Positions 37,722 to 40,303 of a stretch of DNA of 64,000 bases are shown here, piece after piece. A model generated the notes under the pieces. It was not told the origin of the DNA and did no database searches. It worked only from the letters and a program-made list of their open reading frames with translations. Location of the stretch: assembly GCA_028871455.1 (NCBI GenBank), contig JAGWNF010000012.1:1-64000 (forward strand), in the 5' to 3' direction. Numbering within the stretch: position 1 is the first letter of the stretch; every line of letters starts with the position of its first letter. Source of the DNA: Alphaproteobacteria bacterium. Its GTDB lineage: Bacteria; Pseudomonadota; Alphaproteobacteria; ATCC43930; CGMCC-115725. The translations under genes and the position numbers were made by a program.

Positions 37722-38045
37722 CTACTTGGTGGGCTGATCGTAGTAGAGGACGATTTCGTCTGGCGCGGCGTAGTTCAACATCGCGTGCACGCGCTCGTCG
37801 AGATAATCGCGGTCGAGGTGGTTGCCCTGGAGCAGCGCGACGTGCTGCGCCAGCGGCGCGCGCTCGGCCTGGAACTTCGCCAACGTCGCCTTGGCGTCGT
37901 GCACCTGGGTCTGGAGATTCCACAGCGCCAACAGGCCGCGATCGCCTTCGACCAGGTGATAGGCGAAGTAGGCGCAGAGTGCGCAGCCGAGCACGGGGCC
38001 GATGATCTGGCGCGCGCGGGCGCGCAGCGCGTAAAGCACGTCCAT
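37722..38045 (-). CDS. ftsB: Septum formation initiator, FtsB/DivIC family
   Basis: 107 aa: a short cytoplasmic N-terminus, one transmembrane helix (IIGPVLGCALCAYFAYHLV, about residues 14-32) and a periplasmic coiled coil (LWNLQTQVHDAKATLAKFQ onward), then DRDYLDERVHAMLNYAAPDEIV, which matches the FtsB/DivIC family. FtsB joins FtsL and FtsQ in the divisome and signals septal peptidoglycan synthesis. The position between eno and pdhA is conserved in alphaproteobacteria. Seven GANTC methylation sites lie immediately upstream, suggesting cell-cycle control. Confidence 0.9.
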   Translation of the reverse strand: MDVLYALRARARQIIGPVLGCALCAYFAYHLVEGDRGLLALWNLQTQVHDAKATLAKFQAERAPLAQHVALLQGNHLDRDYLDERVHAMLNYAAPDEIVLYYDQPTK

Positions 38046-38048
38046 GGC

Positions 38049-38131
38049 GACTCGTTTGAATCACGGCCGAGTCGCTGGGTCAAATGAAATCCGATTCTCG
38101 AATTAAGAATCAAAGAGTCGTGGGCCGACTC
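38049..38131 (-). promoter_or_regulatory. Cluster of seven GANTC (CcrM-type) sites upstream of ftsB
   Basis: GANTC occurs at 38049, 38058, 38069, 38093, 38107, 38115 and 38127, directly before the ftsB start. At this base composition about one site per 330 bp is expected by chance. Several sites pair into hairpins: CGACTCG (38048-38054) with CGAGTCG (38068-38074), GATTCT with AGAATC (38093-38111), and AGAGTCG with CGACTCT (38114-38132). CcrM methylates GANTC, and GcrA reads such methylation at promoters in alphaproteobacteria. Confidence 0.7.
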
Positions 38132-38183
38132 TGCGGCCAATTCTGAGCTTCGGAACGGTGCACAACGGCGTGGGCGCGAGCCT

Positions 38184-40303
<2,120 letters not shown>

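Follow-up and report, generated by a model that had tools for sequence, protein, structure and literature searches.

In Caulobacter, promoters with a GANTC site between the -35 and -10 elements become active at 40-60 min of the cell cycle (PMC4287350). GcrA brings polymerase to promoters that are methylated, and mutation of GANTC cripples such promoters (PMC3667746). The division genes with a strictly conserved GANTC in Caulobacter relatives are ftsZ, mipZ and ftsE (PMC3708114); ftsN was later listed as a CcrM-linked division gene, and ftsB is missing from the published table of Caulobacter essential genes misregulated without CcrM (PMC3973325). In the published view the CcrM/GcrA regulon undergoes rapid rewiring, and Adhikari et al. 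(2021), whose text is without ftsB, conclude that outside Caulobacterales its control of division genes is not universal (PMC7987155). In the open literature searched, no paper joined ftsB, GANTC and CcrM, and none linked GANTC with "septum formation initiator"; one paper each mentions ftsB together with CcrM and ftsB together with Caulobacter and GcrA, both under titles on other topics. The search covered open main texts, and ftsB may already be listed in a supplementary table. We report here a dense GANTC array directly before ftsB, part of which is predicted to lie inside a promoter that recurs across the Alphaproteobacteria.

Results

The window, that is, the whole 64-kb stretch of DNA analysed, belongs to a genome of 3.0 Mb in 51 contigs and carries the minus-strand gene order eno-ftsB-pdhA. 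Seven GANTC sites, starting at 38049, 38058, 38069, 38093, 38107, 38115 and 38127, lie in 83 bp (38049-38131) inside the 138-bp gap between eno and ftsB. Both these coordinates, with the nearest site ending 4 bp from the ftsB ATG, and the identity of ftsB, which matches Pfam DivIC, agree with the initial annotation. The features of the region are as follows.

37722..38045, minus strand: ftsB (107 aa, DivIC/FtsB family), Pfam PF04977 E=7e-13; the ATG begins at 38045
38049..38053, minus strand: GANTC site 7 (GAGTC, -8 from ATG), past the -10 element and ahead of the start codon; conserved in the genus, with a similar position in other families
38055..38063, minus strand: putative extended -10 element TGATTCAAA, in which the register of the hexamer is uncertain; conserved class-wide as TGATTCNNT
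38058..38062, minus strand: GANTC site 6 (GATTC, -17 from ATG), overlapping the -10 element; the TTGAC-to-GATTC distance is 21-22 bp class-wide
38069..38073, minus strand: GANTC site 5 (GACTC, -28 from ATG), in the spacer between -35 and -10; many families have a site 10-11 bp past the start of TTGAC, and the site here fits the published extended motif YGAKTCK
38078..38083, minus strand: proposed -35 element TTGACC, with its TTGAC box at -38; TTGAC lies at -34 to -38 of ftsB in most genomes read
38093..38097, minus strand: GANTC site 4 (GAATC, -52 from ATG), conserved in the genus; elsewhere, too, sites are seen some 12-14 bp upstream of TTGAC
38107..38111, minus strand: GANTC site 3 (GATTC, -66 from ATG), conserved in the genus
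38115..38119, minus strand: GANTC site 2 (GACTC, -74 from ATG), conserved in the genus
38114..38132, minus strand: stem built from sites 1 and 2 and followed by a T-rich tail, a possible weak eno terminator; a single terminator-like match against a chance expectation of 0.3
38127..38131, minus strand: GANTC site 1 (GAGTC, -86 from ATG), conserved in the genus
38184..39455, minus strand: eno, located upstream of ftsB and co-oriented with it

GANTC is scarce in the window, with 110 occurrences observed against 308 in dinucleotide shuffles, and its avoidance is a known trait of Alphaproteobacteria (PMC3973325). The count corresponds to one site per 580 bp, so the background of about one per 330 bp assumed in the initial annotation was too high. 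The second-best 100-bp stretch of the window holds three sites, and the Poisson probability of at least seven in 83 bp at the window rate is p=1.5e-10, or about 5e-4 over the 3.0-Mb genome. Pattern searches of the whole genome for three GANTC within 65 bp returned no other cluster as dense as that before ftsB, the runners-up having four to five sites; the many equally dense clusters that the initial annotation had named as a possible objection were thus not found. The reversed pattern CTNAG was left out as a control for this comparison because it is itself avoided in these genomes (PMC3973325). Density alone is nevertheless not decisive, because at a promoter-like rate of 5 GANTC/kb about 0.6 such clusters are expected per genome, and one is therefore unsurprising. 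This expectation is what speaks for a chance cluster without function, and it is conservation, rather than density, that counts for the ftsB array.

Among the other clusters of the genome, four GANTC form a 28-bp perfect palindrome, GAGTCGCGACTCGGTCGAGTCGCGACTC, directly before a saccharopine-dehydrogenase-like gene (G000:C10:7723-7750; L032-L034). Five sites in 63 bp lie in a phage-like stretch (G000:C1:100010-100072; L029, L057), about 200 bp beyond which an open reading frame resembles, by eye, a ParB-domain DNA methyltransferase. A further cluster occupies the gap preceding a HisKA histidine kinase gene (G000:C17:192983-193011; L014), and the second match to the RAMA domain in this genome, in a frame of 148 aa (G000:C18:48530-48762), has four GANTC at its end.

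Conservation within the genus was read from five distinct ftsB haplotypes, namely our own, three from bins G001 and G002 and one from G003, the FtsB proteins of the other four being 77-78% identical to our own. G001 and G002 each contain two differing ftsB copies on separate contigs and are most likely mixed bins of two species. All seven sites occur at the same spacings (12, 8, 14, 24, 11 and 9) in the five haplotypes, and the loss of the sites in close relatives, another objection raised in advance by the initial annotation, is contradicted by this strictly kept spacing. Invariant columns numbered 35/35 within the sites, 33/51 between them, 16/80 upstream and 213/330 in the gene (p=2e-5, treating columns as independent although the haplotypes are few). 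The count of 35/35 follows correction of a 3-bp gap misplaced by MAFFT in G003, in which site 7 is intact on direct reading and abuts the ATG. Conservation in the genus, together with recurrence at ftsB in 52 families, leaves a chance origin hardly credible; it is this evidence, not density, that rejects chance, which is refuted for the core sites.

As the initial annotation had noted, six of the seven sites form hairpin arms (pairs 1-2, 3-4 and 5-7; DNA fold z=-4.0), but this arrangement is little special, since the pairing arises largely because GANTC equals its own reverse complement. A role as RNA hairpins is unlikely for most sites, given this self-complementarity and the position of most sites upstream of the likely transcription start. 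The stem of sites 1 and 2 was checked as an intrinsic terminator for eno and has 7 bp with four G-C pairs and an interrupted T tail; a terminator is possible there, yet it leaves sites 3-7 unexplained. In a broader form of this explanation, sites 1-4 would be mainly an eno terminator or another element unrelated to methylation, and only the core sites would count for ftsB. The 7-bp stem followed by a T-rich tail suits it, but the T run is weak, sites 3 and 4 lie outside the stem and are conserved equally, and other families have extra GANTC upstream of ftsB without this stem arrangement fixed, so that we regard it as very improbable.

The regions upstream of ftsB were read in 147 genomes from 77 alphaproteobacterial families, the start codons of relatives being script-assigned and some perhaps off by a few codons. 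A shared promoter emerged, with TTGAC at about -34 to -38, GANTC 10-11 bp past the start of TTGAC in many genomes, GATTC 21-22 bp past it in most, and the ATG about 9-12 bp beyond. TTGAC-N15..17-GANTC was present upstream of ftsB in 97/147 genomes and 52/77 families; its chance rate per 80 bp was 0.05% in shuffles and 0.03% in real flanks, and one match was found in 306 kb of flanking strand versus 42/50 ftsB upstream regions. The GANTC rate was 3.1 per 100 bp in the 100 bp before ftsB versus 0.15 in the flanks. In our own genome, spacer site 5 lies at +10 from the start of TTGAC, in the predicted -35/-10 spacer, and the published extended GcrA motif YGAKTCK is matched by four of the seven sites; the spacer site is among them and the -10 site is not. 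Scanning with the standard sigma-70 consensus gave no promoter at ftsB, because the -10 element is non-canonical, and for this reason the promoter call rests on conservation.

Judged from this alignment of promoters, sites 5, 6 and 7 appear to lie inside or at the ftsB promoter, in the spacer, in the -10 element and just before the ATG, respectively, and the distance to the ATG indicates that the ftsB mRNA is probably leaderless or nearly so. The initial annotation, which proposed that the array may act as a counter, was right that the sites are real but overlooked these three within the core promoter; because of their position, the core sites are explained without a counter. Unrelated families repeatedly show sites near -5 to -9 and some 12-14 bp upstream of TTGAC, and arrays of six sites occur before ftsB at three other loci (L186, L206 and L244). 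The seven-site array is the extreme of a recurrent tendency rather than an isolated oddity, and the four upstream sites are best read as a genus-specific elaboration of this recurrent habit. An exception is family f2 (G039-G042), in which ccrM and gcrA are present and the ftsB -10 region mostly reads GATTG, with no GANTC.

The absence of ccrM and gcrA, which the initial annotation had considered damaging to its proposal, does not apply here, since our own genome has gcrA (G000:C46:42025-42348) and a full-length ccrM with a C-terminal RAMA domain (G000:C8:108780-109871). This ccrM itself has five upstream GANTC at -139 to -38 (G000:C8:108674-108746; L009, L137), and the set in G009 is similar. 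In the sister genus g11 of the same family, ccrM was missing in 9/9 genomes (G013, G021, G025, G029, G031, G033, G035, G037 and G038; domain and full-protein searches; 77-98% complete) and gcrA was found in 8/9. The core promoter GANTC was absent in 7/7 readable ftsB promoters of g11, TGATCC replacing TGATTC in three. Genus g11 thus appears from these gene searches to have lost ccrM while keeping gcrA, and offers a natural experiment on GcrA action without CcrM and for testing the link between ftsB and CcrM. Family-wide, the core GANTC was present in 24/24 genomes with ccrM versus 2/9 without it (p=8e-6, the loss of ccrM in g11 counting as one evolutionary event); the two exceptions, G018 and G032, are assemblies that are incomplete, and ccrM is present in their congeners. 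Of family f36, G076 is without ccrM and without the -10 GANTC, and G191 reads GATCC at -10. Outside the family, the association between site and ccrM was not significant, and the site occurs in G058, G095 and G098, where no ccrM match is convincing.

These comparisons bear on whether the GANTC matches are incidental, the conserved sequence being the binding site of another transcription factor or a plain constrained promoter. Such an explanation would account for the central N, which does not vary within the genus at any of the seven sites, for the inverted repeats formed by the paired sites and for GATTC as the sole -10 form in 29 tabulated promoters, although these were picked as GANTC-bearing. 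Across genera, however, the N of the spacer site varies (15 GAATC, 5 GACTC and 2 GAGTC) and GA-TC is constant, g11 and f2 retain a recognisable TTGAC promoter without GANTC, and within the family the absence of the site accompanies the absence of ccrM. We therefore consider an incidental match improbable.

Discussion

The methylation link between ftsB and CcrM proposed in the initial annotation appears well supported by the GANTC-bearing promoter found class-wide and by its absence in g11, which lacks ccrM, and expression of ftsB is probably tied to DNA methylation. We propose the following scenario, in which ftsB has a housekeeping-sigma promoter that is CcrM-dependent, probably GcrA-activated and coupled to methylation. 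A promoter composed of the TTGACC box, a GANTC in the spacer and GATTC over the -10 element would give an mRNA starting at or near the ATG. CcrM would methylate the GANTC adenines at this promoter, and GcrA, on RNA polymerase with the housekeeping sigma factor, would read the methylated sites and aid the opening of a poor -10 element. Once the replication fork has passed, the sites would stay hemimethylated until CcrM returns, and the output of ftsB would thereby track replication. The two core sites would be old and common across the class, and the site next to the ATG and the four upstream sites may be extra reader or tuning sites fixed in the genus; as a plain alternative to a counter, the upstream sites may provide additional GcrA binding near the promoter. 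We favour CcrM/GcrA activation, and hold it to be likely, because the anatomy of the ftsB promoter matches that of the Caulobacter spacer-GANTC promoters (PMC4287350) and because GcrA recruits polymerase (PMC3667746). Family f2, with ccrM and gcrA and no GANTC at ftsB, stands against it, as do G058, G095 and G098, the fit of only four of the seven sites to YGAKTCK, the restriction of the ccrM association to one family and one loss event, and the absence of ftsB from the Caulobacter table of misregulated essential genes (PMC3973325).

The main rival is direct repression, in which full methylation of the adenines in the -10 element and spacer would hinder RNA polymerase itself, and ftsB would fire when hemimethylated after replication, GcrA being unneeded. 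The overlap of the conserved GATTC with the -10 element is consistent with repression, as is the gcrA promoter of A. tumefaciens, where six GANTC lie in 250 bp and methylation represses even in E. coli (PMC11514494), and g11 keeps gcrA in 8/9 genomes with ccrM and the sites gone. On the other hand, most studied division promoters with GANTC, such as those of ftsZ and mipZ, are activated by methylation (PMC3708114), and the spacer position is that of the activated class of Caulobacter starts (PMC4287350). We thus infer activation rather than repression by methylation at ftsB, and think repression unlikely, if by some way the strongest of the competing explanations.

A more speculative extension of CcrM/GcrA activation, which we advance tentatively, is that ftsB is an ancestral class-wide target of CcrM and GcrA with a -10 element that doubles as a methylation site. 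Around it, dense arrays with as many as seven sites may have arisen repeatedly, forming an adjustable timer that couples the assembly of the divisome to replication, and lineages losing CcrM may rewrite the -10 element to escape this dependence.

The locus resembles ftsZ, mipZ, ftsE and ftsN of Caulobacter (PMC3708114, PMC3973325, PMC3667746) in that all are division genes with a conserved promoter GANTC in genomes with ccrM and gcrA. It differs in that each of the Caulobacter genes has one or two sites, whose conservation was judged to be limited to close relatives, and ftsB is not named among them; at ftsB, moreover, the overlap of GATTC with the -10 element is seen in many families. The gcrA promoter of A. 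tumefaciens (PMC11514494) likewise bears a dense GANTC cluster at a cell-cycle gene, but its six sites are spread over 250 bp rather than seven over 83 bp, methylation represses there, and the gene is another. A spacer GANTC in a promoter of housekeeping type is shared with the Caulobacter -35/-10 starts, of which only 11/96 had two or more GANTC in the 50 bp upstream (PMC4287350), whereas ftsB has three within 45 bp of its start codon. Similar in approach is the core GcrA regulon predicted by Adhikari et al. (2021), also a comparative hunt for conserved extended GANTC sites, in which ccrM is a core target (PMC7987155); our own ccrM, too, has upstream sites, five in number. In contrast to the picture of division genes in that work, ftsB looks like a class-wide case, and a CcrM site over the -10 element in 52/77 families would make ftsB a candidate for a conserved core link from replication-coupled methylation to division.
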